NCBI GenBank assembly: GCA_937899415.1
Contig: CALBPI010000054.1
Location: forward strand, 1 to 47,269
Source of the DNA: an uncultured Gammaproteobacteria bacterium
GTDB lineage: Bacteria; Pseudomonadota; Gammaproteobacteria; Steroidobacterales; Woeseiaceae
Length of the DNA: 47,269 nt
Reading direction: 5' to 3'
Part shown: positions 4,697 to 20,925 of the stretch, piece by piece
Layout of the letters: every line of letters starts with the position of its first letter
How positions within the stretch are numbered: position 1 is the first letter of the stretch
Notes under the pieces: model-generated
Told to the model about the DNA's origin: nothing
The model's input: the letters and a program-made list of their open reading frames with translations, nothing else
The model's database searches: none
Position numbers and translations under genes: made by a program

Positions 4697-5584
4697 CTAC
4701 TTCTCGGTCGAATCATATGCGCCGCGCGCGACCCACTTCGATTCAAAGGCGCGCACCTCGTCGAAGCCCAACAAGTCGCACATGTCCTCAAAGTTAAATC
4801 GAGCCTGTCCGGTGCCGGCCCCCGCGCCCTTGACCTTGAGGTCATGCAGTGCCTGTTCCACGGCAGCCATTGCGCTGAGCGCAGAAATCGCAGGGAATAT
4901 GGCAAGGTCGTATCCGAGGCGCTGCAATGTCGATGCATTGAGCATGGGCGTCGCGCCACCTTCGGCCATATTGGCCATCATCCATGCATCGACCTGCTGA
5001 CAGGCAAGCTGCATCTCAGATTCCGAATCGAGTGCCTCCAGAAATACGATGTCGGCGCCGGCTTCCGCATAAGCCGAACCGCGTTCGAGTGCTTCTTCGA
5101 ACCCGAGACCGGATCGGGCGTCCGTTCGCGCGATAAGGAGCATGTTGTCATCCGTACGGGTATCCAACGCCAAATGGATCTTGTCGACCATGTCTGGCGT
5201 TGGGATGACTCGCCGTGTTCCAACGTGCCCGCATTGTTTCGGGAATTCCTGGTCCTCGATCTGAATGGCCGCAACGCCCGCGCGTTCGAAACCACGGACC
5301 GTGTGGCGCACGTTCAGCAAGCCGCCGTAACCCGTATCCGCGTCTGCGATAACGGGTGACTGCGCGTGCTCGCACACGGCGCTGACCCGATTGAGCATGT
5401 CTGTGTATGTCGCCAACCCCGCGTCGGGGAGACCAAGGTATGACGCCGTTAACCAGTAGCCGGAGGCATATACCGCATCGAAGCCGACGCGGTTCGCCAC
5501 CAAGACGGACATCATGTCGAAGACGCCAGGTGCCACAATCAACTCGCCGCGTTCCAGTTGATGGCGCAAGTTCGGGGTTTGCAT
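4697..5584 (-). CDS. Isocitrate lyase / PEP mutase superfamily enzyme (methylisocitrate lyase or oxaloacetate decarboxylase-like)
   Basis: 295-residue TIM-barrel enzyme that probably cleaves a C-C bond in a 2-hydroxy-dicarboxylate or decarboxylates a 2-oxo-acid. Visible hallmarks are APGVFDMMSVLVA, the Mg-binding DADTGYGG, IEDQEFPKQCGH carrying the catalytic-loop Cys of the lyase branch, and ARTDA. GAGGAAG lies 5-6 nt before the ATG at 5584; an upstream ATG at 5620 lacks this. Length fits PrpB and oxaloacetate decarboxylase (about 290) rather than isocitrate lyase (over 420). No prpC or prpD genes are nearby, so a propionate pathway is not supported. It is followed by the TonB receptor, suggesting import and breakdown of one substrate. 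Confidence 0.85.
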   Translation of the reverse strand: MQTPNLRHQLERGELIVAPGVFDMMSVLVANRVGFDAVYASGYWLTASYLGLPDAGLATYTDMLNRVSAVCEHAQSPVIADADTGYGGLLNVRHTVRGFERAGVAAIQIEDQEFPKQCGHVGTRRVIPTPDMVDKIHLALDTRTDDNMLLIARTDARSGLGFEEALERGSAYAEAGADIVFLEALDSESEMQLACQQVDAWMMANMAEGGATPMLNASTLQRLGYDLAIFPAISALSAMAAVEQALHDLKVKGAGAGTGQARFNFEDMCDLLGFDEVRAFESKWVARGAYDSTEK

Positions 5585-6733: not shown

Positions 6734-9182
6734 CGCCGTGGATCCCCGCATGACATTGACCAGCGCCCGCTGCACACTGACATGGCGCATCAGCGTCCTG
6801 ATCGCTACGGTTGCCGTAGCGAATGCTTGCGCCATAAAGCCTCATTCGAAGACGGCAGCACCTGGCGTTGAGAACGACACCATCCTGGAGCGCAATATGG
6901 CAGCAGCCGCTACTCGGCCTGGGCCCACGGACCTGGCCTGGCGACAACCGAAAACCGCCATTGCCGGCAGCACCATGCCTGCGCGTGAGACGACCGCTGA
7001 CACCGCACCGATGTCGGCGGCCCTTCAGGACGGCGCCGATTATTCGGACGCCCTCGGTGGCATCGGCCTCATGGTATCTCGGGCTGGAAAGACGATCGTC
7101 GCGCATTTTCCGGAGAACGTTGACGCCACAACGCACTTCGCGAGCTACTCCATGCACAAGAGCGTACTGGCGCTTGCCGTACTGGCGGCGATCGAAGACG
7201 GCTACATTGCAAACCTGGACGCACCTGTCGGGCGCGACATTGCGGCCTGGTCTGGCGACGCACGCGGTGCGATCACTTACCGGCAACTTCTCAATCATCA
7301 AAGCGGCCTGGAGCACTTTCCTATTTCGAGTGAGCGCGGCCGGGACTTAGCCTACTCCGGACGCGTCACCGAGACGGCGTTGTCGCATCAACTCGTCGAC
7401 CAACCGGGCGGCGCGTTCAACTACAACAATGTCAACAGCCAGATCGCAGGGATCGCGCTGATTGGTGCGCTTTCCGCCAACGACCTCGACTACGCACAGT
7501 ATCTGTCCAAACGACTCTGGAAGCCGCTCGGCAATCACGCAGCGGCACTGTGGATCGAAGCACCCGGGGGCAACCCGCGTTTTTTCTCCGGCCTTGAGGC
7601 CGGACTGGGAGACTGGCTGCGTCTTGGCGAGCTCATTGCAAACGAGGGGCGCTTTGGGGAAACGCAGGTGCTATCCGCGGCGTCGATCGCGGCGCTCATC
7701 ACGCCGGCAACAGGCAATCCGGCCTACGGCCTGCACGTCTGGCTCGGCGACTCGTGGCAGCGCGACCGGCGCTACGGCCCGTCTACGACGGTCACGGTGC
7801 CTCATAAAACACCTTACCTTGCACCCGGGGTCGTCTTTTTCGACGGCTTCGGCGGGCAGCGAGTCTACGTCGTTCCCGAGCACCAGCTTGTCATTGCACG
7901 GGCCGGCGCCGTGCGTCTCGACTACGACGACAGCACGATTGTGAATGCGGTGGTCCGTGGCGAGCTTGACGAACGGGCGGACAACATCATGACAGCTTAT
8001 GCGCGAGGTGACGGCGAGTCGCAGTACCTTGAGCGCTTCGAAATGCTGATGAGCGGCGCCGGCAGCGGCGGCCGCGGCCTGGGCGGCTATGACCCAGTGA
8101 CACCCCTGAAAGGCGTTCAGGAAGTCACACCCTTGCCGAGGGGCGAGGCCTCGGATGACTGGCTCGATGAGGAAACCGCGGACTGGCTAGAGACTCTGGG
8201 AAACGCGTCGAATACGCAGGCCATGCTGGTCTGGCACGACGGTCGAATCGTGTGGGAGCGCTACTACGATGATGTGACACCGGAGAGTCTGGTGATCTCT
8301 CGCTCCCTGTCCAAGCCGCTTTCGGTCATCGCCGTAGCACGGGCAGTCGCGCTCGGCTATCTGCCATCTCTTGACGTCGAGGTTGCTCAGTATCTGAGCG
8401 AATGGCGTGGCAGCGACAAGGGCGCCATCACGATTCGCCAGCTGCTGCAGATGCGCTCCGGGCTGGCCCCGCAGTCATTTGCGCCCAAACCTGATGACAT
8501 CATGAACCGGGCGTACCTCCATCCGTACCACGAAGCGGTCATTCTGTCTGACTACCCGCTCGTCACCGAACCCGGGACGCGATACGACTATTCAAACGCC
8601 AATGGCGAGATTCTCGCCGTCATACTCGAACGGGCCACGGGCCGGCGCTATGAGGACTGGATTGGAGAGGCGGTCCTGCGGCCCCTTGGGGCAACGGGTG
8701 GTCAAGCGTGGTTGAATCGACCCGGGGGTACCTTGCATGCGGGCTGTTGCGCGCTGCTGCCGACCGAGACCTATTTGCGACTGGCACTGTTGTTGCTCAA
8801 CGACGGCGCATGGCAGGGACAACAACTGCTACCGCCAGGCTTCGTGGCAGAGATGACTTCCGCGACGGCGCTGAATCCTCATGTCGGGATGGGTGTGTAC
8901 GTCGCCGGTCCCTACATTGAGTACCGCGGCGCGGCGAACCCCGAGGTGTCATTCGGCAAGACATTGCATACGTCCCCGTATTTGGACAAGGACCTTTACC
9001 TGTTCGACGGCAATGGGAACCAGGTGATCTACATCGTCCCCCGACACGACCTGATCGTCTTGAGAGTGGGTAACAGTCCGTCGCGAGACACGCCCTGGGA
9101 CAACAGCTTGCTCATCAACCGGGTGTTGCAGGCACTGGCGTCGGCGACCGGCGCATCCCTGATAGAACAGCCGCGAAACTAG
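6726..9182 (+). CDS. Lipoprotein with two tandem serine beta-lactamase-like domains
   Basis: 818-residue probable lipoprotein (signal region ending VAVANAC, Cys near residue 35) with two homologous class C beta-lactamase/esterase-type domains. Domain 1 (about 105-400) has SMHK at 142-145 as the S-x-x-K nucleophile motif and YNN at 233-235. Domain 2 (about 485-815) has SLSK at 527-530 and YSN at 622-624. Both have the usual third-motif position replaced by HKT or GKT sequences near their ends. Such domains act as D-amino-acid peptidases, esterases or lactamases; no resistance role is implied. A GTG start at 6726 overlaps the previous gene; GTG at 6738 or ATG at 6750 are alternatives. Single-domain members are about 400 residues, so this is a fusion or internal duplication. 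Confidence 0.85.
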   Translation: MSNAVDPRMTLTSARCTLTWRISVLIATVAVANACAIKPHSKTAAPGVENDTILERNMAAAATRPGPTDLAWRQPKTAIAGSTMPARETTADTAPMSAALQDGADYSDALGGIGLMVSRAGKTIVAHFPENVDATTHFASYSMHKSVLALAVLAAIEDGYIANLDAPVGRDIAAWSGDARGAITYRQLLNHQSGLEHFPISSERGRDLAYSGRVTETALSHQLVDQPGGAFNYNNVNSQIAGIALIGALSANDLDYAQYLSKRLWKPLGNHAAALWIEAPGGNPRFFSGLEAGLGDWLRLGELIANEGRFGETQVLSAASIAALITPATGNPAYGLHVWLGDSWQRDRRYGPSTTVTVPHKTPYLAPGVVFFDGFGGQRVYVVPEHQLVIARAGAVRLDYDDSTIVNAVVRGELDERADNIMTAYARGDGESQYLERFEMLMSGAGSGGRGLGGYDPVTPLKGVQEVTPLPRGEASDDWLDEETADWLETLGNASNTQAMLVWHDGRIVWERYYDDVTPESLVISRSLSKPLSVIAVARAVALGYLPSLDVEVAQYLSEWRGSDKGAITIRQLLQMRSGLAPQSFAPKPDDIMNRAYLHPYHEAVILSDYPLVTEPGTRYDYSNANGEILAVILERATGRRYEDWIGEAVLRPLGATGGQAWLNRPGGTLHAGCCALLPTETYLRLALLLLNDGAWQGQQLLPPGFVAEMTSATALNPHVGMGVYVAGPYIEYRGAANPEVSFGKTLHTSPYLDKDLYLFDGNGNQVIYIVPRHDLIVLRVGNSPSRDTPWDNSLLINRVLQALASATGASLIEQPRN

Positions 9183-10582
9183 GGTCTGACCAGCGCTGCG
9201 GCGGTTTGCCCTGCAAGTCGCCCAAGCGTGGTGGCCGTCAGCAAGCCATTTCCTGCCAAATACCCCCAACTGGATGGGCCAGAGATGCCGCGCGCAGCGC
9301 CGCCGCCAGCGAACAAATTTGGAAACGCGGTGCCATCTGGTCTTTGCACCCGGCCAACACCGTCGACACGCAGCCCGCCTTGCGTGTGAAACAGCGCCCC
9401 CGTCACTTTGACGCCAAAAAACGGGGCGGTCAGCGGAGGCCTGTCGGCGAACACGCGACCAAAGCGATCCACGCTGCCGCTGCGCATTGCCTGAGACACC
9501 TCGTCGAGCGTTTCCATGAGCCCATTCGCGTCAATGCCCAGTTCGCTGGCGAGTCCCACGATCGTGTCCGAGCTGCGAATCGCATTGGCCGCCAGCGCAT
9601 CGCGATAGTCGTCAAACTCTCTCATCAAGGCATCGAGGCGGGCATCAAAGATGGTCCAGGCCACATGATCGGGTTGCGCGACAACGTCGACAGCCTGCTC
9701 CGAATAGCCTCTTGATTCATTGGAGAATCGCTGGCCGTGCACATTGACCTGCACACCGCCTTCCATGATGACCGGCCACAAGATCGGCACACCCCGACCT
9801 GCCGCCAGCCCGCCATGACCCTGGTAAGCACCCAGGTCGTCGATCGCCGCACCGAGCTCATGAGCCCAAATCAGCGCATCGCCTCGGTTGCCAGGGTGGC
9901 CATAGTATTCAGCGTCCGCAATTTCGGGCATGTGTTCGCGGACCATCTGCGCATTGCCGCCAAAACCGCAGCAGGCCAGGATCAGTGCCTGGCAGCCGAC
10001 GGTCTCCGTGCTGCCGTCGGGCCGCTCACAGCAAACCCCAGCGACCCTTCCATCGGCATCCGCAAATAGCGACGTTACGGTTGCCTCGGTCAGGACATCG
10101 CCGTCCACACGCGTGAGCGCGTCGGACAGCGCACCCATCAGCTCGCTGCCCGTGCGGTTCTTTGTGCCATGCATGCGGTGCACGGTGTGACCCGGATACA
10201 GAAAGCTGTCCACCAGAGACAGCTGGACACCTGCCGCCACGAGCCAGTCAATGGTCTCCCCGGATGCTTCCGCAAGCTCGCGAACAATATCCGCGTCTGT
10301 TTGTTGCTTTGCTTTGGCAAGCACATCGCGGGCGAACAGTTGCGCACTGTCGGCCACCCCGGCCGCAGACTGCAGCTGGCTGCCGGCGCCGGGAATCAGC
10401 CCCGTGGACATTCCCGTCGAACCCGATGGTGTGGCATCGCGCTCAATGACCAGCGATGCCGCGCCGCCCTGCTGCGCTGCGATGGCGGCGGTCAGACCAC
10501 AGCCACCGCCGCCTACAATAACCACGTCCACGGCAACGTCGAACGTTGCCGCCTCGGCCGGCAGAACTGTAACCGCTGTCAC
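9179..10582 (-). CDS. FAD-binding fumarate reductase / ketosteroid dehydrogenase-type flavoprotein
   Basis: 467-residue flavoprotein of the FAD_binding_2 family. The N-terminal dinucleotide fold is VDVVIVGGGGCGLTAA. ATPSGSTGMSTGL, the substrate-capping region, HTQGGLRVD and the C-terminal GGGAARGISGPSSWGYLAG FAD contact follow. The family reduces or dehydrogenates C=C bonds in fumarate, urocanate, 3-ketosteroids and similar compounds. GTG at 10582 is chosen because GGAGG lies upstream and the previous gene stops 4 bp earlier; the frame stays open to 10690 inside that gene. It is the last gene of the minus-strand cluster. Its stop overlaps the stop of the beta-lactamase-like gene (shared CTAG at 9179-9182). 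Confidence 0.88.
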   Translation of the reverse strand: MTAVTVLPAEAATFDVAVDVVIVGGGGCGLTAAIAAQQGGAASLVIERDATPSGSTGMSTGLIPGAGSQLQSAAGVADSAQLFARDVLAKAKQQTDADIVRELAEASGETIDWLVAAGVQLSLVDSFLYPGHTVHRMHGTKNRTGSELMGALSDALTRVDGDVLTEATVTSLFADADGRVAGVCCERPDGSTETVGCQALILACCGFGGNAQMVREHMPEIADAEYYGHPGNRGDALIWAHELGAAIDDLGAYQGHGGLAAGRGVPILWPVIMEGGVQVNVHGQRFSNESRGYSEQAVDVVAQPDHVAWTIFDARLDALMREFDDYRDALAANAIRSSDTIVGLASELGIDANGLMETLDEVSQAMRSGSVDRFGRVFADRPPLTAPFFGVKVTGALFHTQGGLRVDGVGRVQRPDGTAFPNLFAGGGAARGISGPSSWGYLAGNGLLTATTLGRLAGQTAAALVRP

Positions 10583-10586: not shown

Positions 10587-10823
10587 TTAGTCCTCCAGCG
10601 CCGCGCCGAACACGTGCTGCATGAACTCCTCTCGACGCGCATCAAGCATTGCCTGAAAGGCGTCGTCTGGACGGTATCGATCGATCGCATCTGCCAGATC
10701 GATACCGGATTCGGCCAATAGCTTTTCGGTCACAAGCTGTCGATCGGTGAGCACCCACACTTCCTGTGCGAGGGAAACCAGAATGTCGAACGTGACGTCA
10801 GACGGTGGCGTGTTTTGCCCCAT
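10587..10823 (-). CDS. Small helical protein paired with a methyltransferase (copy 1)
   Basis: 78-residue protein, unknown family, predicted almost all alpha-helical and acidic. Its core LAQEVWVLTDRQLVTEKLL, followed by a Gly, is clearly similar to LAMEVSVLRERLATHEVLL in the 91-residue protein at 18529-18804. Shared positions are L-A-x-E-V-x-V-L, an Arg, a Glu and L-L. Both small genes directly follow a class I methyltransferase gene of the same subfamily. A GAGAGAA ribosome binding site precedes the ATG, and the next gene starts 4 bp after the stop. A partner or regulatory subunit of the methyltransferase is a reasonable inference, with no direct evidence. Confidence 0.8.
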   Translation of the reverse strand: MGQNTPPSDVTFDILVSLAQEVWVLTDRQLVTEKLLAESGIDLADAIDRYRPDDAFQAMLDARREEFMQHVFGAALED

Positions 10824-10842
10824 GGCAGTTCTCTCTTCTCGC

Positions 10843-11865
10843 TCAGGGTTTCGCGGCGACCGTCACCCAAGGGTAGTTGGCGCTGCCGACACCATAACTG
10901 CTGGCAGCCTCAAACCCGACTTCCGTGGCTAATGCCGCAAGATCCAGTGACGCCGCATCACACCAGTACGGCTCGCCGGTGCGCCGAGCCAGGTCTGCCT
11001 GGCGCCACTGGGCGAGCGCATCCATGTCCCGGAACGGTCTTACGTCACTCATGAATAACGTGCCACCGGACTCGAGCAGGCGAAACGCCTCGGTAAAAAC
11101 TCGACGTGTGGCAGCGACGGGCAGCTCGTGCAGCAAAATGTATGACGTCACTAGGTCGAAGCTCTCGTCGGGCAATCCCGTTTCCTCAGCGATCCCCTGT
11201 ATAAGTCGCCAGCGCCAGCCACGATCATTGGCAAAGCGCTGCGCCTGCTCGAGCATCGGCACGGAGGGTTCGACGCCCGTGATCTCGGCGTTCGGGTAGT
11301 GTTCGGCGAGCGCCACGGTGAAGTGCCCGGACGACGTGCCGAGCTCCAGAATTCGCAGATAGTCGCGCTCACCGAGTTCACCAAGCACGGCACGGCGTTG
11401 CTTGAAAATACCGCCCGGGAAATTCCTAGCAACATACAGCGGATGAATGAGCTCGCCATGGATGAATCCCTGATGCTCACGGGTCCAACCGCCCGTCGTG
11501 CGGTGAAACGCGACGCCATCCCAGTAGCTCGGTGGTTGAAACCCGGGCCGCGTCTCGATTTGTGTCGCGCCTCGCGCGAGTCGTTCAAATTCCGAGTCGA
11601 GATCGTCCGCGATCTCATCGAACGCATCGCTCGTGATCTGCCCGTGATGCTGTGATGCCCAGTTCATGAGCCGGACCTGAAACCAGCGCGCGGGATGCGC
11701 GCGCAGTGCAGTATCAACGTGGTCCAACCGCGCCGCGAGATCTTCGGGCAGCTCGAGCGCCGCAACCGCGGCATCAACGTGGGGCCTCAACTTTGCCGCA
11801 GTCGCCGACAGCGATGCTGCGAAATCAATGCTGGAGCGGCCGCGCTGACGAAGCTGAAACTGCAA
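10843..11865 (-). CDS. SAM-dependent class I methyltransferase with N-terminal helical extension (copy 1)
   Basis: 340-residue methyltransferase. The Rossmann domain starts near residue 170 with motif I ILELGTSSGHF, then motif II ITGVEPS, a motif IV-like SFDLVTSYILLHEL, and GGTLFMSDV. About 165 residues precede it, mainly helical, with FHRTTGGWTRE near residue 120. GEPYW occurs near residue 294. The same arrangement (HRQPGG, motif I, GEPYW) is found in the 376-residue protein at 18801-19931, so the two are paralogues. The start is TTG at 11865 with GAGG about 10 nt upstream; a later start is possible. The methyl acceptor is unknown. It lies inside the minus-strand catabolic series. Confidence 0.85.
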   Translation of the reverse strand: MQFQLRQRGRSSIDFAASLSATAAKLRPHVDAAVAALELPEDLAARLDHVDTALRAHPARWFQVRLMNWASQHHGQITSDAFDEIADDLDSEFERLARGATQIETRPGFQPPSYWDGVAFHRTTGGWTREHQGFIHGELIHPLYVARNFPGGIFKQRRAVLGELGERDYLRILELGTSSGHFTVALAEHYPNAEITGVEPSVPMLEQAQRFANDRGWRWRLIQGIAEETGLPDESFDLVTSYILLHELPVAATRRVFTEAFRLLESGGTLFMSDVRPFRDMDALAQWRQADLARRTGEPYWCDAASLDLAALATEVGFEAASSYGVGSANYPWVTVAAKP

Positions 11866-11922
11866 GGCTATGGCCTCGCGTGTGCGCGCGTTGGCACGAC
11901 GAATCGACCGCGACGTACCGGG

Positions 11923-13266
11923 TCAGCCACGGGCAAGACGCGCCTCCCGCGCCGACTCAAGTTCTGCGTGGCCGAGCTTGTAGGCCAGCAATAGCGGAAC
12001 CGTGAGCAGACAGAGCGCCGCGGGTACCACCGAAATCCCTAGATGAACGGCTACGATCGCGGATTCTGGCTGTGCGTCAACGGCTGCGCCGCTGACGAAT
12101 CCCCGCGTTTCCAGCAGAACCCCGACGATTAGAGGCCCGAGAGCACCCGCCACTTTTTCGACGGTCGTGAACACGCCGCTCATGATGCCGTTCCTGTCTT
12201 CACCCGACTGTAGCCGGTCGTACTCCATCGTATCCGGCAACAACGCGAGCGCACACACGAGCGTGCCATTGGAGGCGACGCCAATAAACAAGGCACGCGC
12301 ATAGAACGCCACGTCGCCCTCCCCCGGCACCCATAACCACCAGCTCGCGACACCGATGGCGTAGGCCAGGATCGAAAAGAGATAGACGTTACGCTTGCCA
12401 AAACGCGCAATGACCATGCGCCACAGCGGGAGTGACAGCAGCCCGGACAGACTGAAGGTCAATAGATACCACGTGATGTCCGATGTCTCGCGTTGCAAAA
12501 CAAAGCGGAAGAAGTAGGGCGTACAGGCAAGAATCAGCGCGAGCACAGCCAGTTGCAGTAGCTTCACCAGCGTCAGCAGGCGGAAGGGGGCATGCGCAAA
12601 GACGCTACCCAGCTGGCGCCAGGGCGCTGCGCGCTTGGCGGCGGGGTCCGGGGACGTCGCGTCGCGATCGCGCGTCCCAAAGAACGCAATGCCGCCGGCA
12701 ATGATCGCGACCAGCCCCAAACCGATTCCAAGCGCCGAACACCCGCGGGCCCCCTCTCCCCCCATCTCGACGAGCAGGGGCCCGCCTGAAGACCCGATCA
12801 GAACACCAATGATCAGGAATGCAACCCGCGCCGACATGAGTCGGGTCCGGTCGTCGTAGCCCGGCGCAAGCCGAGGCGGCATCGCCAGATAGGGCACCGT
12901 GAAGATGGTGTAGCTCGTCGAGTACAACAACAGGGCGCCCAGGACCATCAAAATCATGGCCGTGCCGTCCAGGCGTGGCAAGTTAAACAGCAGTGCGAAA
13001 CTGAGACCGAGCAGGATCGCGCCCGGCAGCAGGTAAACACGTCGAGACCCGGCCGCGTGGCGCGTTCTGTCGCTGATCGCGCCCATGATCGGGTCCGTCA
13101 CACCGTCATACAGGCGTGCCGCGAACAGCAGCGTCCCGGCAGTCGCAGCGCTCAGACCAAGCGCCGAGGTCATGTAGAACAACCCGAACAACGCCAGGCC
13201 GTTGAACAGCGCACCTGTCCCAAGTGACCCAGCGGCCCAGGCCAGCTCATGTCCGCGCAGCTTCAT
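11923..13266 (-). CDS. MFS transporter, GPH/MelB-type cation symporter
   Basis: 447-residue inner-membrane symporter with about 12 hydrophobic segments. The opening (FNGLALFGLFYMTSALGLS) and the loop DGVTDPIMGAISDRTR are hallmarks of the glycoside-pentoside-hexuronide:cation (MFS_2) group, where the Asp in this loop takes part in cation coupling. Many such genes in catabolic clusters take up carboxylates or sulfonated compounds rather than sugars, so the substrate here is open. It is 22 bp downstream of the PAP/fibrillin-like gene and probably co-transcribed. No strong ribosome binding site is visible before the ATG, so translational coupling is possible. Confidence 0.88.
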   Translation of the reverse strand: MKLRGHELAWAAGSLGTGALFNGLALFGLFYMTSALGLSAATAGTLLFAARLYDGVTDPIMGAISDRTRHAAGSRRVYLLPGAILLGLSFALLFNLPRLDGTAMILMVLGALLLYSTSYTIFTVPYLAMPPRLAPGYDDRTRLMSARVAFLIIGVLIGSSGGPLLVEMGGEGARGCSALGIGLGLVAIIAGGIAFFGTRDRDATSPDPAAKRAAPWRQLGSVFAHAPFRLLTLVKLLQLAVLALILACTPYFFRFVLQRETSDITWYLLTFSLSGLLSLPLWRMVIARFGKRNVYLFSILAYAIGVASWWLWVPGEGDVAFYARALFIGVASNGTLVCALALLPDTMEYDRLQSGEDRNGIMSGVFTTVEKVAGALGPLIVGVLLETRGFVSGAAVDAQPESAIVAVHLGISVVPAALCLLTVPLLLAYKLGHAELESAREARLARG

Positions 13267-13288
13267 CGGACGCTACAACTCAAGATGC

Positions 13289-13945
13289 TCAGAACGACAC
13301 GGGCGGTTGGTCGAGCCGTTCAAGCACGTAAAAGCCGCCGAGCTTGCCGTAGTTGATACGTAGATCGTCATCGACATAGACGATGTCAGAGTGCAGCGAA
13401 GGGGGGCGCAACTCTCGTTCCAGCTCAACGTCTCGCTCCATACCAAAAGCGGTGCGGAGTGCGTCGGCATCCACGTCGTCCGAGACCAGCGCCACCTTGT
13501 AGAAACTCACCGCATAACGTCGCGGGTCGTCGTCATCGGGACCATAGTTGCCGTACATGATCACCTGGGCCGTTGTGTCGCCCGCCTGATTGGTCAGCGT
13601 CACCACGTTGTTGTACGCCTTCGATGTGTCGTCAATCTCCTGAGCCACCTGCTTCACGTGCGCCGGCACGTTGGGGAGTTTGCCAAAGCTCTGCAACATC
13701 AGATTGGTGGTGTGCTGCAGCGGCTGCTCCTGAGAGTGCTTGACACCAAAACTCGCGAAGCGCGATCGCCAGACACCCGCCGACGCCTTTTGATCATTGA
13801 TGGGCTCCGGTACGGGCGTGTATTGCGCGAGCGTGTCGCATAACGCGCGCAGTTGGTCTTTGTCCGCCTCACTTATGAGCACGGTTTCGTCGATCGCGTT
13901 TACGGCATCGAGCACAGCACGCTTCGCAGTCTCTCGTTGTTCCAT
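13289..13945 (-). CDS. PAP/fibrillin-like domain protein
   Basis: 218-residue soluble protein. The C-terminal part reads IVYVDDDLRINYGKLGGFY followed by VLERL, close to the signature end of plastid-lipid-associated proteins (YLDEDLRIxRGxxGxxFVL). An earlier segment (FASFGVKHSQEQPLQHTTN...) fits the start of that lipocalin-like barrel, which binds hydrophobic ligands. The N-terminal 50 residues are helical (AKRAVLDAVNAIDETV), as in plant fibrillins. The ATG at 13945 has GGGAG upstream; the open frame reaches 14134 but that part overlaps the next gene. It sits between the deacetylase-like gene and the symporter gene, so binding of a lipophilic intermediate is a plausible but unproven role. Confidence 0.72.
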   Translation of the reverse strand: MEQRETAKRAVLDAVNAIDETVLISEADKDQLRALCDTLAQYTPVPEPINDQKASAGVWRSRFASFGVKHSQEQPLQHTTNLMLQSFGKLPNVPAHVKQVAQEIDDTSKAYNNVVTLTNQAGDTTAQVIMYGNYGPDDDDPRRYAVSFYKVALVSDDVDADALRTAFGMERDVELERELRPPSLHSDIVYVDDDLRINYGKLGGFYVLERLDQPPVSF

Positions 13946-13961
13946 CGTAGTTCTCCCGGAA

Positions 13962-14879
13962 TTAGGGGGATGCGTCTTCAGCAATGTGTTGCTTGTGCAC
14001 GCCCAGATACCAATCGGCCAGCGCTTCGCGTGTGGGCCACCACACGTGTGGCAGGCTCTTGGCGTACTCGAGAAACTCCCGGATCGCGCGGACCCGGTAG
14101 GCACGGCCCGAGACATGTGGGTGCAGTCCGACATTCATGAGACGCCCATTCGAGGCGCCCTCAGCGTAGAGCACATTGAGCTCCTCGATCAAAATGTCTC
14201 GGAACTCATCGGTCGTGTGGCCGCGTCGCGTCAGAATCGTAAAGTCGTTGATCTCGTTTGAGTAGGGGATCGAAACAAGCGGGCCGGAATCGGTGTCGAT
14301 CATGAATGGTTGGTCGTCATTCATAATGTCGCAATAAAACTTGAATCCATGTTCCGCCAGAATCCCGGGGGTCTCGAGCGTTCCGCGCAGCGATGAAGAG
14401 AGCCACCCCACTGGCTTTCGATCCGCGTGCTTGGTGTACATCTCGACTGACCGACCGATGACGTCTCGCTCGGCTTCAATGTCGCCCACGAAATCTGTCA
14501 GCAACTCGCCCTGCTCGTAGTTGTGCGCCAACAGCTCCCAGCCACGATCGAGGCAGGCCTGGACCATCGCACGCCGTCGCTCGAAGGTAACCGCATTTGT
14601 TGTGCAACTCGCCGCGACGCCCAGCTCATCGAACAACTCGTAGAGTCGCCAAATACCCACGCGCTGGCCGTATTCGCGCCACGTGTAGTTGGGATAATCG
14701 GGCTTATGGCCCGGCAGGATGCTGGGGAGTATGGCCGGGCCGCCCGCGTAATAGGGTTCATCCGTGTCTTTCGTCAGGTCCCAGGTTTCGAGGTTGAACG
14801 TCAGAATCAGGGCGACCTGTTTACCTTCAGGAAACTCGAGCTTGCCGCGCTCGGGAATGGGGACGTAGGGATAGCGCAT
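13962..14879 (-). CDS. Polysaccharide deacetylase-family (NodB fold) hydrolase, PuuE/allantoinase-like
   Basis: 305-residue cytosolic protein with the carbohydrate esterase 4/NodB fold. It resembles PuuE-type amidohydrolases (VALILTFNLETWDL, AGGPAILPSILPG, TWREYGQRVGIWRLYELFDE) more than cell-wall deacetylases. The region where PuuE proteins carry EIxGHGW reads ELLAHNYEQ, and a histidine pair occurs in LHPHVSGRAYR. The usual Asp-His-His metal triad is therefore only partly recognisable. The family hydrolyses C-N bonds in cyclic or linear amides. The ATG at 14879 lies 1 bp after the previous stop with GGAG in the preceding gene, which indicates tight coupling to the arylmalonate-decarboxylase-like gene. 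Confidence 0.82.
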   Translation of the reverse strand: MRYPYVPIPERGKLEFPEGKQVALILTFNLETWDLTKDTDEPYYAGGPAILPSILPGHKPDYPNYTWREYGQRVGIWRLYELFDELGVAASCTTNAVTFERRRAMVQACLDRGWELLAHNYEQGELLTDFVGDIEAERDVIGRSVEMYTKHADRKPVGWLSSSLRGTLETPGILAEHGFKFYCDIMNDDQPFMIDTDSGPLVSIPYSNEINDFTILTRRGHTTDEFRDILIEELNVLYAEGASNGRLMNVGLHPHVSGRAYRVRAIREFLEYAKSLPHVWWPTREALADWYLGVHKQHIAEDASP

Positions 14880-14880
14880 C

Positions 14881-15627
14881 TCAGTGCGACTCCAGCAGCT
14901 GACCGAATCCAGACATTCGGTCCTTGATTCCGTTGGCGCGCAGCGCATGCCAATAGGTCGCCGTGTTGATCGCGATCACCGGCTTGCCAAGCCAATGCTC
15001 GGCGCTGGCTGCCAGGCGCATCATCGACAAATTGGTGCCCACTTGAATCAGTGCGTCAACGTCATCACCGTCAAGCTCGTGCAGCACGGCGCGCAGCGTC
15101 GACTCCGGAACCTGCGCGATGGCGGTCCAACTCGGACAGCGCAAACACACGTCTCGCACCGTCTCAAAGCCGTAGTCCGAGAGATAGCGCTCGACCTCTG
15201 CATTGGCAACAGGAAAATACGGCGACAGAAATGCGATTCTCCGAATGCCACCATAGGCCTGCAACGCCTCTGCCACGGCTTCCGAACCCACCGAGATTCG
15301 AAGTCCTGAAGCAGCCTCGACGTTTTCACGCCAGCGCTTGCCGCCCTCGGCGCCACCATAGAAGGTTACCGCTGACATGCCCATGACGAGGTAATCCGGT
15401 TTGCAGGTCAAAACGCCACGCACTGCATCGAGCGTGTTGTCCGAAATCTCGACCGTTCCCGCCATAAACGTCTCATCGGATATCGCCTGCGCGTCTTCGA
15501 TGACGATACGACTGTAGTGGTTCGTAACACCCTCCGGTCGCAGATCGTCAAAGTCGGGCTGCACGATCGTATTGGTCGATGGACCAAGAACCCCGAATTT
15601 GGCGCGCCAGCCGCGTGCGTCAGTCAT
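14881..15627 (-). CDS. Asp/Glu racemase superfamily protein, arylmalonate decarboxylase/maleate isomerase-like, catalytic Cys absent
   Basis: 248 residues. It aligns by eye along its length with arylmalonate decarboxylase and maleate cis-trans isomerases: FGVLGPSTNTIVQPDF, LVMGMSAVTFYGG and RRIAFLSPYFPVANAEVE. It ends GKPVIAINTATYWHALRANG. Superfamily enzymes use one or two cysteines, at the positions of GMS here and of QVGTNL (consensus SCTNL or SCGG). Here the first site is Gly-Met-Ser and the second is Val-Gly, so both lack Cys. A decarboxylase or isomerase by the known mechanism is unlikely; a changed chemistry or non-catalytic role is possible. It is 8 bp downstream of the FAD monooxygenase gene. 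Confidence 0.82.
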   Translation of the reverse strand: MTDARGWRAKFGVLGPSTNTIVQPDFDDLRPEGVTNHYSRIVIEDAQAISDETFMAGTVEISDNTLDAVRGVLTCKPDYLVMGMSAVTFYGGAEGGKRWRENVEAASGLRISVGSEAVAEALQAYGGIRRIAFLSPYFPVANAEVERYLSDYGFETVRDVCLRCPSWTAIAQVPESTLRAVLHELDGDDVDALIQVGTNLSMMRLAASAEHWLGKPVIAINTATYWHALRANGIKDRMSGFGQLLESH

Positions 15628-15635
15628 GGTGACAC

Positions 15636-16829
15636 CTACCCTATGCTCGCGGCTTCGCGCAGGCTTTCAATCATCGACTGCCTGAGTATGTAGGCACGTC
15701 TGGCGTCTGGGTCCTCGCTGGCGGCTTTCATACGGGCAAACCGTCTGGCGTGGCCCTCTTCTGCACCATGCTCGAGCAATTCCTTGTTCTGCATGGTCTG
15801 GTGCTGGATGAATGAGTTGGTTACCGAGCGTCGTTGCCGGTCGTATTGCTCGAATGAAGGTTCATCGTGCCCGCTTTCGAGGCAGCTCAGTATCCTGTCC
15901 TTGAGATTCCAGACATCGTGAATACCGCTGTTCATGCCGAATCCACCGATGGGGTTATTCAAGTGCGCCGCATCGCCGGCCAGAAATACACGCCCATGGT
16001 TGAATTGGTTCACCACCCGCTGATGCACTCGGTAGATGGTCCGGTGCTCGGTGGCAACGTCGGGATTGCCGATGAGCCGCGAGAAAATGCCATCTCGGGT
16101 CGCGTCCGACAGCAGCTCCTTGTCATCGGTATTTTCGTCGGCGGGTACGAGGACGCGCCAGACGCTGGGTGCGCGCAGCAGGACCAGCCACTCGTTGGGA
16201 TCAGCGACGTAGTTGACCCAGCACAGACCGTCGATGTAGTCGCGAAGGTCCAGCTTCGTCGACACACAGAGGAACTTCTCCGGGTAGGTAAATCCGTCGA
16301 ACTCGGCGCCGAGCCATTTGCGGATGATCGAGTTCCCGCCGTCGCAGGCGATCAGGTAGCGCGCGCGGATCTTCTCTATTTCGTAGGGCGTCTCGAATGC
16401 TGCCGTAACGCCATCATCGTCTTGTTCAAATGCAATCACGCGATGCCGGTAGCGCACCTCAGCATCGGGATGCGATTCGAGTGCGTCGGCCAGCATCCCT
16501 GCCATGACGTGTTGCTCGCACTGAATCCGATAGGGAAACCGGGTCACGTCGGCGAGCTCACTCATATCAAATGCAACGGTCTCGCCCGTCTCACGCTCTC
16601 TGAAATGAAACACGGGCGCCTTGAGCCCGTATTCGATGATGTCCCCGGCGACGCCAAGGTCGTCGAGCATCTCGATCGTGGGCGGATGAAACGTCGATGC
16701 ACGAAGGTCCTGCGCACAACTGTCACCGGCTTCGCAGAGCACAACGTCTGCCCCGCGACGTGCCAGCGCGTACGCAGCAACAGTCCCGACCGGACCGGCT
16801 CCGACAACAATGACATCCGCAGTTCGCAT
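15636..16829 (-). CDS. FAD-dependent aromatic-ring monooxygenase (PheA/MhpA-type)
   Basis: 397-residue class A flavoprotein monooxygenase, expected to hydroxylate an aromatic or related substrate with NAD(P)H and O2. Motifs in order: GxGxxG at the N-terminus (VVGAGPVGTVAAYALARRG), an Arg-containing segment (RASTFHPPTIEMLDDLG), the DG-type motif (YLIACDGGNSIIRKWLG) and the GD motif (VFLAGDAAHLNNPIGGFGMN). The size matches MhpA/UbiH-like enzymes without the extra C-terminal thioredoxin-like domain of phenol hydroxylases. AAGGGA precedes the ATG by 8-9 nt. It is the first gene of the minus-strand series and is divergent from the aldehyde dehydrogenase gene. Confidence 0.9.
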   Translation of the reverse strand: MRTADVIVVGAGPVGTVAAYALARRGADVVLCEAGDSCAQDLRASTFHPPTIEMLDDLGVAGDIIEYGLKAPVFHFRERETGETVAFDMSELADVTRFPYRIQCEQHVMAGMLADALESHPDAEVRYRHRVIAFEQDDDGVTAAFETPYEIEKIRARYLIACDGGNSIIRKWLGAEFDGFTYPEKFLCVSTKLDLRDYIDGLCWVNYVADPNEWLVLLRAPSVWRVLVPADENTDDKELLSDATRDGIFSRLIGNPDVATEHRTIYRVHQRVVNQFNHGRVFLAGDAAHLNNPIGGFGMNSGIHDVWNLKDRILSCLESGHDEPSFEQYDRQRRSVTNSFIQHQTMQNKELLEHGAEEGHARRFARMKAASEDPDARRAYILRQSMIESLREAASIG

Positions 16830-16926
16830 TCATACGTTCCCTTTCGAAGGAACGACGAGTGTAGCGAGCGAGCCGGCATCGCCTTATCCAATTTTGCGAA
16901 GCCACAAATCCACAAATTGAATGGTC

Positions 16927-16957
16927 TGTGACGGTTACTCGAATAGTCTTGGTCACA
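16927..16957. promoter_or_regulatory. Nested palindrome in the divergent promoter region
   Basis: Outer arms TGTGAC and GTCACA and inner arms ACT and AGT share the same centre (16942). The element lies 35 bp before the aldehyde dehydrogenase start and about 100 bp before the monooxygenase start, a usual place for an operator controlling both. The binding protein is unknown; the LysR protein encoded at 20035 is one candidate. The spacing of the outer arms is too wide for a normal CRP site. Confidence 0.4.
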
Positions 16958-16991
16958 TCCCATTTGGCGCCACGCGCCTCAGGACACGCCC

Positions 16992-18521
16992 ATGAAAACG
17001 CCGCTCCGCGTCGCAGACATTGCCCGACGTCACCAACTTAACCTCCCCGACTCCGTACCCGCGTTCATTGACGGAAGAGCGCATGAAAGCGCATCGGCAC
17101 CGTTGACGCGCGACTGCCCTGCGACTGAGGAATCCCTGTACAGCGTGCAGGAATCGGAACCCGAGCTTGTCGCGAAAGCGGTTTCAGCGGCCCGTGATGT
17201 GGCAGACAACGGTGCTTGGCCGCACATGGCGCACAACGATCGGAAGCGTGTGCTTCGCCGCATCATCGACGTCATTGAGACGCACAGCGATGAACTGGCG
17301 GCCATCCAGGCCCTGGAGGTCGGTCTGCCGCTCAGCGGCGTAAAATTTATGCACATGCCAAGAACGATGGAGAACTTCGACTTCTTCATCGAAGTCGCGG
17401 GCACCCTCGGCGGACACAGTTACACGCAGACCGGGCGCTACCAAACCGTCGTCACAAGAGAGGCCGCGGGCGTAGTCGGGCTCATCTCTCCCTGGAACGC
17501 CCCGCTTGTACTCACCTCGATGAAGCTGGCCGCCTCATTGGCTCTCGGCAATGCTTGCGTCATCAAAGCGTCCGAGCACAGTCCCTATTCCGTCTACCGG
17601 TTTGTGGAACTGCTGCATGAGGCGGATCTGCCTTCGGGGCTCATCAATCTCATCAATGGCCGTGGACCGATCACGGGCAGCGCCCTTGTCGCGGACCCCG
17701 GTGTCGATGTGATTGGGTTTGTCGGAGGCACGGCCACGGGCGCCGCCGTCATGTCGCAGGCCGCGACGACCGTCAAGAAGGTCGGACTGGAACTTGGCGG
17801 CAAGTCCGCCAATCTCGTGATGGCGTCAGCGGATCTCGATCAGGCCGTCGACGGTTCGCTGCTCGCGATTCTCGCGGGCAACGGCGAGCAATGCCTTGCG
17901 GGTTCGCGAATTCTGGTGCAGGAGTCGATTGCCGACGCATTTATCGCGCAGTTCACCAAACGTCTGGCCAACATTCGCATTGGTGATCCATTTGCCGACG
18001 ACACAGAACTCGGACCCATGGCGTTTCGGTCACACTATGAAAAGGTGCGCTCCTATGTCGACATTGCAACTTCCGACGGTGCCACACTGCTCACGGGCGG
18101 CCGCGCAGTAGCCGATGCGCCCGCGGGCTACTGGCTCGAACCCACGGCGTTCGAAACGAGAGACAACGCGATTCGCGCATGCCAGGAAGAGATCTTTGGG
18201 CCATTCGTCACCATCCAGCGGGTGCCGGATGCCGACGCCGCGGTCGAGATCGCCAATGATTCACCGTATGGTCTCGTCGCCTATCTGTGGTCTAACGACC
18301 TGCCAGAAGTCACGCGTGTGTCGGCGGCACTCAAGGCCGGAACCGTGTGGGTCAACACGCCGCTGACGCGCGACTTGCGAGCGCCTTTCGGTGGGTTCAA
18401 GCAGTCGGGCGTCGGGCGCGACGGCCTGCACGCCTCCGTCGAGCTTTTGACAGAAGAAAAGGCCGTGATGTACCCAACAGGGCCTCTTCCTCTGCCCAAG
18501 CTGGGGTTGCCGAGCGCCTGA
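16992..18521 (+). CDS. NAD(P)-dependent aldehyde dehydrogenase
   Basis: 509-residue member of the ALDH superfamily, oxidising an aldehyde to the acid (or CoA-free carboxylate) with NAD(P). Recognisable parts are ISPWNAPLVLTSMKLA (cofactor fold), VGFVGGTATGAAV, the general-base Glu in LELGGKSANLV (near residue 267), the nucleophile Cys in GNGEQCLAGSR (near 301) and EEIFGPF. The C-terminus LPLPKLG recalls 2-hydroxymuconate/HpaE-type semialdehyde dehydrogenases, but that is weak evidence for a substrate. It is divergent from the monooxygenase operon and converges with a small gene 7 bp downstream. It probably handles an aldehyde produced by the cluster. Confidence 0.92.
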   Translation: MKTPLRVADIARRHQLNLPDSVPAFIDGRAHESASAPLTRDCPATEESLYSVQESEPELVAKAVSAARDVADNGAWPHMAHNDRKRVLRRIIDVIETHSDELAAIQALEVGLPLSGVKFMHMPRTMENFDFFIEVAGTLGGHSYTQTGRYQTVVTREAAGVVGLISPWNAPLVLTSMKLAASLALGNACVIKASEHSPYSVYRFVELLHEADLPSGLINLINGRGPITGSALVADPGVDVIGFVGGTATGAAVMSQAATTVKKVGLELGGKSANLVMASADLDQAVDGSLLAILAGNGEQCLAGSRILVQESIADAFIAQFTKRLANIRIGDPFADDTELGPMAFRSHYEKVRSYVDIATSDGATLLTGGRAVADAPAGYWLEPTAFETRDNAIRACQEEIFGPFVTIQRVPDADAAVEIANDSPYGLVAYLWSNDLPEVTRVSAALKAGTVWVNTPLTRDLRAPFGGFKQSGVGRDGLHASVELLTEEKAVMYPTGPLPLPKLGLPSA

Positions 18522-18528
18522 TGCGCCC

Positions 18529-18804
18529 CTATCGGAGCTTTTCGACCAATGCGTTGATCAGTGCATTTCGCTCAGCGGCGCGGCGCGCAGACTCATCTCC
18601 GCTCGGCTGAAACGCTTCGACTTGCGAGCGGCTCATAACCCCACCCGCTTCCAGCAACACTTCGTGAGTGGCCAACCGTTCCCGAAGGACACTGACTTCC
18701 ATTGCGAGATGCAATACGACCGCCACGAGCTGATCGGGTGACAGCGCATCCAATTGCTGCGGACGCGCAAGCCGCTCCGGCTGTGCGTCATTGGCCGTCT
18801 TCAT
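18529..18804 (-). CDS. Small helical protein paired with a methyltransferase (copy 2)
   Basis: 91-residue, mostly helical protein of unknown family. The core LAMEVSVLRERLATHEVLL followed by a Gly pair matches the 78-residue protein at 10587-10823. The N-terminal 28 residues are Pro/Gln-rich and extra relative to that copy, and the C-terminus is Arg/Ala/Glu-rich. Its ATG at 18804 overlaps the methyltransferase stop (ATGA), a classic coupling arrangement; a longer open frame upstream lies inside the methyltransferase gene. The constant pairing with a methyltransferase suggests a shared complex or regulation. Confidence 0.82.
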   Translation of the reverse strand: MKTANDAQPERLARPQQLDALSPDQLVAVVLHLAMEVSVLRERLATHEVLLEAGGVMSRSQVEAFQPSGDESARRAAERNALINALVEKLR

Positions 18805-19931
18805 GGCGCAGCGCTCGCGCCGAATACGAGCATATCGCCTTGTCCGAGTGGGTCGTAATCGGCGAATCGCTGATCTTTCGAAAAACCCGCACGGGCCATC
18901 TCGGAATCGATATCGAGCTTGGCAAACCCGTCCCAATACGGCTCGCCATTATTGACGACTTGCCAGTGGTTGGTCTGCTGCTTGGTGAGGCTCGTGCGAT
19001 GGGCCTGATACGGCACATCGACATGCAACATCACACCGCCGGGCGCCAGCAGTCGCCGCGCCTCGGCAAGGATATCGGGCAGGATGTCATCACCGGTTTC
19101 GTGAAACAGAATGTTTGAGACAATCAGATCAAAGCTCGCGTCTTCGAAACCAGTTTGGCGTGCATCCGTCTGTCGAAAGTGTATGGGAAGCCCCTGGTCC
19201 TCGGCCCAAACGTGGCCGAAACGCAAGAACGGTGCTGACAGATCCACACCCCACACTTCTGCATCCGGAAACGTTCGTGCATAGGCCACGGTTTCCGTGC
19301 CGGGTCCGCAGCCCAGATCGAGAACCCGTTTAGGGGCGAGCTCGGGAAACCGGCGCTGGAGTGCAGCGATGATGTAGAACCCCATGCCGGGCTCGCCGGC
19401 GGCAGCGCCCGTCGAAAGCCCTTTGGCGGCGCGGTAAAGCTCAACCGTGCCGAAGTAGCGCAGCCCGGTCAGCAGACCGTGCGTATCTTCCTCGCCAAAG
19501 TAGCCACCAGGCTGCCGGTGAATCTCAACGGACCGAATCGGTTCGGGCAGCTTCAGTTCATCATCCAGCTCGAGACTTCCGAGACGGGAACCGTCTGACA
19601 GCGCCGCATACCGCCGCTCGAGTTCGGGCAGCAAACGCCGGCACGTTTCGTCCACGGTGTCCCACATGAGGTTTTGGGACTCATACACCGCGGCGCCCCA
19701 GAGCTGGTAGAGGTGGGACTCGGAGAACAGGGCATCGACTTCGTCGCGCGTTGCTGGCGCGCGGCCGTGCGCGTCACGAAACTGAGGGTCGATTCGATGC
19801 TCAAACTCGGCCGCGAGTTGCTGCTCGAGCGGACCATTCAGAAAGCCCTTGAGCGCACCCACGAACTGTTGCCGCGCCGCTTCATCGTGAGTGGGACGGT
19901 ACAGGTCTGCAAACTGCGGTGAATCGCTCAT
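18801..19931 (-). CDS. SAM-dependent class I methyltransferase with N-terminal helical extension (copy 2)
   Basis: 376-residue methyltransferase. The N-terminal part of about 195 residues contains EIHRQPGGYFGEED near residue 140. It is followed by motif I VLDLGCGPGTETVAYA (about 202), VWGVDLS, FDLIVSNILFHE, LAPGGVMLHVDV and a late GEPYW near residue 330. It is paralogous to the protein at 10843-11865, sharing the HRxxGG segment and GEPYW site as well as the fold. The acceptor substrate is not evident. The gene is divergent from the LysR gene 103 bp away, which suggests that regulator controls it. The stop overlaps the start of the small partner gene. Confidence 0.85.
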   Translation of the reverse strand: MSDSPQFADLYRPTHDEAARQQFVGALKGFLNGPLEQQLAAEFEHRIDPQFRDAHGRAPATRDEVDALFSESHLYQLWGAAVYESQNLMWDTVDETCRRLLPELERRYAALSDGSRLGSLELDDELKLPEPIRSVEIHRQPGGYFGEEDTHGLLTGLRYFGTVELYRAAKGLSTGAAAGEPGMGFYIIAALQRRFPELAPKRVLDLGCGPGTETVAYARTFPDAEVWGVDLSAPFLRFGHVWAEDQGLPIHFRQTDARQTGFEDASFDLIVSNILFHETGDDILPDILAEARRLLAPGGVMLHVDVPYQAHRTSLTKQQTNHWQVVNNGEPYWDGFAKLDIDSEMARAGFSKDQRFADYDPLGQGDMLVFGASAAP

Positions 19932-20034: not shown

Positions 20035-20925
20035 ATGGACCTTCGACAACTACGATACCTGTTGGTCGTCGCGGAGTCAGGAAGCCTGACTCAGGCATCC
20101 GAACGCATCCCGATTGCGCAGTCCGCGTTAAGCCGACATATCCGTCTTTTGGAGGACGAGCTGGGCGTCAAGCTCCTGATTCGCACCGGGCGCGGTGTTG
20201 AGCTCACCGAACAGGGCGACTTTTTTGTGGGGCGCGTACGCTCGGTTCTCGAGCAACTCGAGGATGCTCGTCGCGGGCTCATCGCCTGGAACGACAATCC
20301 CGCAGGTCTCGTGCGCATCGGCATGCCACCAACCACCACGCTGGTCATGGCAGCTGACATTCTCGAACGACTGAAGCACCGCTACCCCGACATTAGCGTG
20401 CGACTTAGCGAAGGTCTGAGCGCGACGCTCGCAGAATGGCTGGGCAATGATCGCCTTGATCTCGCCGTGGTATTTGATCATTCGGGGAAATCGCCCTTGC
20501 GCGCGGAGCCTATAGCTCGAGAGACTCTGTGTTTCGCGGTGCCTTGTGGCGCAACCTGCCCCGACCCGGTCACCATTGAAGACATGGCGAGCCACCGGCT
20601 CATCGCACCGTTTAGAAAGCAAGGCATTCGTAATCGCATGGCGGCCGCATTCGAGCAGGCCGGATTCGAATTTCGGGCGGCCTACGAACTCGATTCGCTG
20701 CCAGCGATCAAGGCGCTGGTTCGCTCAGGTGCGGGCGCTGCGATTCTGTCGCGCTCCTCGATCAAGAAAGACGTCGTCGCTGGGCGGCTGGAGTCGCGAC
20801 GCATCGATGCGCCTAATTTGATGTTCGATGTTCATGTCGTGATGTCTCGCACCGCCGAACACAGCCGCGCAGCCCAGGCGGCGGGCGAGGTGATTCGTGA
20901 AGTGAGCGCTGAGCACTTCGCATAG
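20035..20925 (+). CDS. LysR-family transcriptional regulator
   Basis: 296 residues, normal for the family. The N-terminal winged helix-turn-helix is complete (MDLRQLRYLLVVAESGSLTQ, then SALSRHIRLLEDELGVKLL). The linker helix and a periplasmic-binding-protein-like effector domain follow (GLVRIGMPPTTTLVMAADIL, LDLAVVFDHS). LysR proteins usually control a divergently oriented gene and respond to a pathway metabolite; here the divergent gene is methyltransferase copy 2. The regulator probably serves at least that module and perhaps the whole cluster from 9179 onward. The ribosome binding site is weak. Confidence 0.92.
   Translation: MDLRQLRYLLVVAESGSLTQASERIPIAQSALSRHIRLLEDELGVKLLIRTGRGVELTEQGDFFVGRVRSVLEQLEDARRGLIAWNDNPAGLVRIGMPPTTTLVMAADILERLKHRYPDISVRLSEGLSATLAEWLGNDRLDLAVVFDHSGKSPLRAEPIARETLCFAVPCGATCPDPVTIEDMASHRLIAPFRKQGIRNRMAAAFEQAGFEFRAAYELDSLPAIKALVRSGAGAAILSRSSIKKDVVAGRLESRRIDAPNLMFDVHVVMSRTAEHSRAAQAAGEVIREVSAEHFA

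Follow-up and report, generated by a model that had tools for sequence, protein, structure and literature searches.

In alfalfa COMT, an O-methyltransferase of the Pfam family PF00891, residues His269, Glu297 and Glu329 are catalytic. Another described arrangement is that of Trm112, a small protein which PMC5372719 presents as needed for the solubility of its partners and as stimulating the binding of S-adenosylmethionine (SAM); it has a Zn-knuckle with the cysteine motifs CX3-4C and CX2C, and metazoan Trm112 is reported in the same paper to be without these cysteines. The locus analyzed here lies in a stretch of 47,269 nucleotides from an uncultured gammaproteobacterium (contig CALBPI010000054.1; the whole stretch is called the window) and contains two gene pairs, each consisting of a gene for a SAM-dependent class I methyltransferase (MT) with an N-terminal extension and a gene for a small, predicted helical protein. 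The small protein is usually found next to the MT and covaries with it, and we consider it fairly probable that each pair encodes a heteromeric two-component small-molecule O-methyltransferase used in catabolic clusters.

Results and Discussion

The coordinates and reading frames that a preliminary description of this stretch, made from the sequence alone, had given for two homologous MT/small pairs (MT-A/small-A and MT-B/small-B, Table 1) were confirmed, as was the position of each small gene behind its MT, in the second copy with an ATGA overlap. MT-A and MT-B are homologous, their pairwise alignment giving 31% over 263 amino acids (aa; E 9e-23). Small-A and small-B align only weakly with each other (E 0.002), and their relatedness follows from the family profile that both match and for which both served as seeds. 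The two motifs pointed out earlier were also found in both MTs, namely HRxxGG (residues 121-126 of MT-A and 138-143 of MT-B; family form HxxPGxY) and GEPYW (residues 297-301 and 329-333; family form N-x-EP). A third pair is located on another contig of the same genome (G000:C37, L002; MT 1378-2607, small gene 1015-1365, both on the minus strand), and a search of this genome with a 47-member small-protein profile yielded these three small genes and one weak match (E 0.3).

Neither small-A nor small-B had a convincing match in Pfam or NCBIfam (the NCBIfam scan covered the two window copies), sequence and fold searches of the PDB gave no convincing match for the small family, and no description of the MT/small pair was found in the open-licence literature. 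The small protein thus represents a family without Pfam model or NCBIfam match, and the pair is apparently undescribed, as had already been supposed. Several candidates were considered and rejected. Kinship with nitrile hydratase was dropped, since the match to 4ob1_A (E 0.11 with eight sequences) became worse with 47 (E 0.45), and NHase_beta_N matched one of eight and one of 47 members at E 0.1 without any gain from more sequences. Other Pfam matches of single small proteins were scattered over 29 families (best E 0.0031, in one of 47 members) and were taken as chance. In PHROGs, small-C and the small protein of L041 had no match and small-B had two (E 0.029-0.091). An apparent MT-small fusion in L027 turned out to be two overlapping frames; no fusion was seen among the loci examined, where no search was aimed at fusions.

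With five MTs as query, at least 561 relatives were obtained from the genome collection, of which the best 80 were kept, and the six-frame open reading frames (ORFs) of these 80 MT loci were searched with a profile of eight small proteins (E <= 0.01). A small gene was present in 65 of them and nearly always came right after the MT; for one of these loci, L087, the record is identical with that of the seed L019. From the side of the small gene, an MT of this family was found within ~1.5 kb in 79 of 81 loci, which were the best matches of the 47-member profile; at least five of their small proteins (L109, L112, L114, L115, L140) either served as profile seeds or share a record with one. The remaining two loci sit near contig ends; L173, however, is possibly a real orphan, because no MT is seen in the 7.8-kb contig of its close relative L265. 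A further 60 stretches, chosen from the remaining profile matches and partly repeating records of the named set (L209, L260, L264), held 65 small genes, with an MT at a distance of <=700 nt in 56 cases and of <=1.3 kb in four. Homologues of the small protein hence occur mostly with the MT beside them; the reverse had been named in the preliminary description as a finding that would refute it. Among 159 unique pairs, 158 are encoded on the same strand, 147 of these with the MT first and 11 not, and the median domain gap is 15 nt.

Some small genes have no MT nearby but other neighbors. They directly adjoin a VOC-like gene together with an isochorismatase (L250/L266, L261/L268), a flavin adenine dinucleotide (FAD) monooxygenase (L173, L241/L265), a short-chain dehydrogenase/reductase (SDR; L258) or an M24-type gene (L020, L203), where the names VOC, SDR and M24 come from sequence reading and the VOC-like representative has no Pfam match. 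Moreover, five loci carry two small genes after one MT (L065, L068, L071, L072, L081). On plasmid p1 of Novosphingobium sp. ES2-1 (L105:14807-15357), an intact small gene is directly preceded by an ORF of 59 aa that resembles the C-terminus of the MT, a likeness judged by eye against L083. The MT-less copies and the double ones would be expected if the small protein were an adaptor or docking subunit of catabolic clusters that associates chiefly with the MT, in other cases with further enzymes, and so holds a metabolon together. We hold this to be rather improbable, as most small genes adjoin an MT, the strongest covariation described below is with the MT (MT-small pairs being those computed), and the ES2-1 case suggests that some orphans may result from decay by loss of the MT. 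At a similarly low level of probability, the small protein might be a general docking subunit of bacterial catabolic clusters that couples mainly O-methyltransferases but also VOC-like proteins, flavin monooxygenases and SDRs into assemblies specific for a substrate, with the acidic-residue pairing described below insulating the paralogous pairs of an interchangeable toolkit of 15 or more MT/small copies from each other.

According to record titles, the hosts with a small gene include Gamma- and Alphaproteobacteria (among the proteobacteria Erythrobacter, Novosphingobium, Sphingomonas, Pseudomonas and Stutzerimonas), Cyanobacteria, Binatia and one metagenome-assembled genome of the Myxococcota. 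Broad sampling found the family sparsely. At class level it turned up in 7 of 185 genomes, with two weak cases, and at phylum level in 4 of 398, both counts including the own genome and the class count scoring only part of the candidates. In some groups it is common: the window's order has it in 65 of 196 genomes, the order of G458 in 64 of 299 and the family of G461 in 16 of 147. Among plasmids from Novosphingobium, Sphingobium and Sphingomonas, the MT is present in eight records and the small protein in nine. Profile searches of single genomes (thresholds E 1e-5 for the small protein and 1e-30 for the MT) revealed 17 small and 16 MT matches in G1043, which consists of one 3.1-Mb contig, 19 and 30 in G987 and 19 and 22 in G1026, the latter two assemblies being fragmented, so that some matches may be split genes. 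Of the 17 small genes in G1043, 15 have an MT as direct neighbor, in one case in divergent orientation. Gene strings from Alphaproteobacteria (L068, L071, L072, L081) combine tandem MTs without small gene, an FAD monooxygenase, an MT with two small genes, MmgE/PrpD and an MT with a small gene.

The 15 paralogous pairs of G1043 co-diverge (r 0.576, 0 of 10000 permutations), which shows that the cassette duplicates as a unit. Covariation between the two proteins was calculated for 207 non-redundant pairs (effective number 130 at 80%) by mean-field direct coupling analysis with an 8-letter alphabet, and a single MT-small column pair was found at z 11.1, far above the rest. The control maxima were z 5.6-7.0 when partners were swapped among similar MTs and 5.3-5.7 in full shuffles (three runs each), and 36 inter-protein pairs exceeded z 5 in the real set as compared to 3-9 in the neighbor-swapped and 2-4 in the fully shuffled ones. 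The mutual information of the top pair was 0.332 against a null of 0.182 (standard deviation 0.031), and this value was reached in 0 of 2000 neighbor swaps.

On the MT side, the covarying site is the second Ala of 'HDEAAR' at the start of the N-terminal extension (Ala19 of MT-B), and on the side of the small protein it is an acidic residue of helix 1 (Glu42 of small-B, Asp27 of small-A) beside a near-invariant Arg (203 of 207 rows). All 18 rows with Glu in the MT have a non-acidic residue, i.e., Gln, Ala or Met, in the small partner, and of the 181 rows with Ala or Ser in the MT 165 have Asp or Glu there. At this site we do not rely on the alignment of MT-A, which diverges most among the copies; in several MT-only copies the residue seems to be Asn (HDExNR), not Ala. 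An acidic residue that swaps sides in this way suggests a contact between the N-terminal extension of the MT and helix 1 of the small protein.

An AlphaFold2 model was obtained for the C37 pair, translated as one chain across the stop between the two genes, with an alignment to 53 relatives (mean pLDDT 87.5, pTM 0.76). From about residue 145 to 410 it shows the class I methyltransferase fold, with 2r3s_A as the best match (Z 16.9, root mean square deviation (rmsd) 2.8 over 205 residues), followed by DnrK (5eeh_A; Z 16.8, rmsd 3.0 over 213), RdmB (1qzz; Z 15.8, rmsd 3.2 over 208) and TamK (7pg7; Z 15.6, rmsd 3.6 over 207). Residues 29-126 of the model consist mostly of long helices. PF00891 enzymes have an N-terminal dimerisation domain, and some alignments with DnrK-type chains reach into the N-terminal part; the Pfam scan of MT-A and MT-B gave no match on the extension. 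For the small protein alone, a model of the L096 homologue (mean pLDDT 88.8, pTM 0.67) has helices at 16-49, 54-59 and 64-109 and only two isolated bridge residues. Searches for fold relatives of this model gave no usable hit (Foldseek best E 1.8; VIA-align best Z 5.0 with rmsd 7.7 over 83 residues), which does not amount to a new fold.

The MT family was also compared by hhalign with PF00891 proteins, six in number (L287-L292), that related genomes encode. The His of 'LHE' aligns with the His of the PF00891 'HD', and the acid 28 residues further on likewise (probability 97%, E 1.2e-10). The His-Glu and the Glu of 'EP' are invariant (207 of 207 rows), and as the acid 28 residues after the His both window MTs have Asp, whereas 46 of the 54 rows in alignment A7 have Glu. 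Presumably these positions correspond to the His base of COMT and its Glu partners, and since the His and the acid of PF00891-type enzymes are kept, O-methylation is predicted for the family. It would be different if the MT-fold subunit used SAM as a cofactor for hydroxylation or decarboxylation, as annotated in the PDB for RdmB and TamK. The structures of both are among the fold matches, methyltransferases are to our knowledge unusual in catabolic clusters, and the many copies would suit a general activation or removal step. Still, RdmB and TamK share the wide fold with many true methyltransferases, with which they are tied in Z, and together with the retained His and acid of true O-methyltransferases this leads us to regard a cofactor role of SAM as unlikely.

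Several observations weigh against a two-component enzyme. No small gene was found in 15 of the 80 MT loci (in L038 the MT runs into the contig end, and in L061, L062, L069 and L074 an MFS-type gene stands next to the MT instead), and for 27 non-redundant MTs none was seen over 1.5 kb or as far as the stretch extends; as such MTs exist, the MT fold does not need the small protein. Conversely, 5 of the 65 further small genes have no MT in the examined stretch, 2 of the 17 small genes of G1043 lack an adjacent MT while one of its pairs is divergent, and most of the small proteins from which the profiles were built lie beside an MT, which biases them toward linked ones. The pTM of the read-through model leaves the placement of the small part unsettled. 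In a tree calculated with FastTree from the joined alignment minus the two covarying columns, the MT state at the covarying site changes only about five times, and the three supported independent pairs agree or are neutral; these are too few for significance, since a sign test on them has a median p of 0.25 and is unable to go down to 0.05. This dependence of the covariation on few independent changes, and the fact that operon linkage alone yields correlated trees, might imply that the two genes are merely co-inherited and that the small protein has an independent job as regulator, chaperone or substrate binder. Yet the gene order varies among the same-strand pairs, the pair is present, by record titles, in Proteobacteria, Cyanobacteria, Binatia and Myxococcota, and the coupling exceeds that in the neighbor-swapped controls, so that we give simple co-inheritance little credence.

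The linkage, the co-divergence and the covarying residue pair bear out the earlier proposal of a conserved module. The small protein had further been called an obligate partner, which goes too far given the MTs without small gene and the small genes without MT; 'usual' is the better term.

If the two proteins do form an enzyme, its large subunit would be the class I SAM-dependent component with an O-methyltransferase-type His base and the long, in the model helical, N-terminal extension, and the small subunit would comprise two long helices with no obvious globular core. Helix 1 of the latter would dock on the start of the extension and probably stabilize the extension or position it over the active site. 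The pair would then act as one cassette of modular, catabolic-looking clusters that would provide TonB import, flavin oxidation, amide/imide hydrolysis and hydratase/lyase steps, and which in some genomes has been multiplied to 17-19 small genes, presumably for different substrates.

Genomic Context

Table 1. Features of the window and members of an accompanying family in other loci, with the basis of each assignment.
Feature	Position	Strand	Basis and remarks
MT-A, class I SAM-dependent methyltransferase with N-terminal extension	10843..11865	-	340 aa, TTG start; Pfam Methyltransf_25 3e-20; family hidden Markov model (HMM) 5e-66 (MT-A among HMM seeds); putative catalytic positions His246, Asp274, Glu298
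small-A, putative helical partner	10587..10823	-	78 aa; family profile A6 E 1.1e-20 in own genome (seed of profile)
MT-B, class I SAM-dependent methyltransferase with N-terminal extension	18801..19931	-	376 aa; Pfam Methyltransf_25 8.3e-23; family HMM 4e-115 (MT-B among HMM seeds); putative catalytic positions His277, Asp305, Glu330; covarying site Ala19
small-B, putative helical partner	18529..18804	-	91 aa, ATGA overlap with MT-B; family profile A6 E 3.3e-25 (seed); covarying site Glu42, adjoining near-invariant Arg43
FAD flavoprotein (flavocytochrome c / fumarate-reductase-like)	9179..10582	-	Pfam FAD_binding_2 6.8e-48; NCBIfam flavo_cyto_c 5.4e-67, below cut-off
MFS_2 / GPH-type transporter, upstream of MT-A	11923..13266	-	Pfam MFS_2 3.9e-79
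PAP_fibrillin-like protein	13289..13945	-	Pfam 1.4e-8; gene call
PuuE / NodB-like amidohydrolase (PuuE-like)	13962..14879	-	NCBIfam uraD_N-term-dom 8.6e-38, below cut-off; no Pfam match
Asp/Glu racemase / maleate isomerase-like	14881..15627	-	Pfam Amdase 4.8e-18; NCBIfam EutA 9.8e-19, below cut-off
FAD monooxygenase (PF01494)	15636..16829	-	Pfam 3.4e-62
Aldehyde dehydrogenase (ALDH)	16992..18521	+	ALDH neighbor cluster; family name from sequence reading
LysR-type regulator, divergent from MT-B	20035..20925	+	sequence reading
TonB-dependent receptor	2246..4600	-	neighbor cluster
PEP mutase / isocitrate lyase-like	4697..5584	-	neighbor cluster; family name from sequence reading
'HEGxWDGxYRxxD' family member	L057:984-1445
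'HEGxWDGxYRxxD' family member	L022:8446-8970
'HEGxWDGxYRxxD' family member	inside L023:6930-7979

The first copy had been said to end in a flavoprotein gene. A flavoprotein gene indeed follows small-A, but as its likely GTG start at 10582 lies 4 nt past the small-A stop, it is rather the next gene of the same run than its end.

In general, the neighbors of MT/small pairs look metabolic. Neighbor clusters among 103 loci comprise TonB receptors (25 loci), SDRs (25), FAD-linked oxidases (18), MFS transporters (17), FAD monooxygenases (17), ALDHs (16), isochorismatase-like amidases (15), OYE-type reductases (14), CaiB (13), HapK (11), PuuE-like proteins (10), MmgE/PrpD (10), HyuA (9) and HyuB (8), plus others. 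Nine of the cluster names were derived from a Pfam/NCBIfam scan of one member, the others from plasmid annotations or sequence reading; the closest NCBIfam models of the OYE-type cluster (mycofactocin OYE 2, BaiCD and bilirubin reductase) are all below cut-off. In G1043, cluster families make up 46 of 234 genes in 14 MT/small loci compared to 8 of 207 in 15 control stretches, and at least one such gene occurs in 14 of 14 loci compared to 5 of 15 controls. For these counts, the cluster families were annotated from other genomes only, 32 of the 234 genes are the MT and small genes themselves, the controls were placed at hand-chosen round-number positions, and the 14 loci do not include the L204 stretch, which has a small gene but no MT. 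The gene set of the window (TonB receptor, PEP mutase, PuuE-like, Asp/Glu racemase-like, FAD monooxygenase, ALDH) is largely common to L269-L271 and to L108, located on pSA1 of Novosphingobium resinovorum.

This set looks catabolic, and its substrate might, as a guess, be a cyclic N-containing compound or an alkylated one that yields a dicarboxylate. From the PuuE-like, isochorismatase, LeuC/D and PEP mutase neighbors and general chemistry, we take as a speculative lead a route via imidase, half-amidase, alkyl-maleate hydratase and lyase for pyrrole- or imide-type compounds. The name TomTYG65 occurs in PMC10653915.

A family of ~150-175 aa with the motif 'HEGxWDGxYRxxD' accompanies the MT/small pair in 15 of the 103 loci (Table 1); its representative had no match in Pfam (E <= 0.001) or NCBIfam (E <= 1e-20). 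Beside the cluster of the window, an 818-aa protein (6726-9182) appears on sequence reading to have two tandem serine-hydrolase (beta-lactamase-like) domains. Further along the window, a 300-nt repeat with 92% identity is found at the end of an AMP-ligase-like gene (37315-37614 and 41895-42194), each time followed by a 97-aa gene with identical N-terminal sequence (37634-37927 and 42214-42507). Between the repeats, the G+C content is low (about 0.53-0.55) over some 4 kb, and there sequence reading points to an RHS-repeat-like gene with a possible nuclease end (38525-39742), a 190-aa ORF after it as possible immunity partner (37928-38500) and a REP-associated-transposase-like gene (39654-40355).

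Conclusion

The MT family described here has its own small partner in at least four phyla by record titles and reaches more than 15 copies in single genomes. Should the complex be real, it would be a bacterial counterpart of Trm112 for small-molecule metabolism, might account for failed attempts to express such MTs without the partner and would flag many catabolic-looking clusters, the substrates of which are perhaps cyclic imides or N-heterocycles.

Among known systems, the PF00891 O-methyltransferases (plant COMT, DnrK, MmcR, ASMT, RdmB) share with the MT family the class I SAM fold, the His and the acid, and a helical N-terminal part ahead of the catalytic domain, which here is seen in the C37 model. 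They differ in that the family stays below the Pfam cut-off of 22.3 bits (MT-B 16.9 bits, MT-A no match) and comes with a separate small partner gene, while we know of no such gene for PF00891. The NCBIfam equivalogs CpaM (1.2e-14 for MT-A) and BioC (5.5e-16 for MT-B) have the SAM-binding core in common with it, but the matches are far under the respective cut-offs (54.3 bits against 180, and 59.1 against 184.95) and confined to the catalytic domain, not extending to the N-terminal extension. Trm112, with its partners Trm9, Trm11, Bud23 and Mtq2, is alike in being a small protein that is itself non-catalytic and pairs with methyltransferases of class I, a likeness that would extend to partner binding if the linkage and covariation seen here reflect a complex. 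In contrast to its Zn-knuckle and beta-sheet, the small protein is helical in the L096 model, and in contrast to its Cys motifs, 136 of 159 members of the small family are without any cysteine. Finally, Trm112 serves several partners in translation, whereas most small genes stand beside one MT family, in metabolic clusters.

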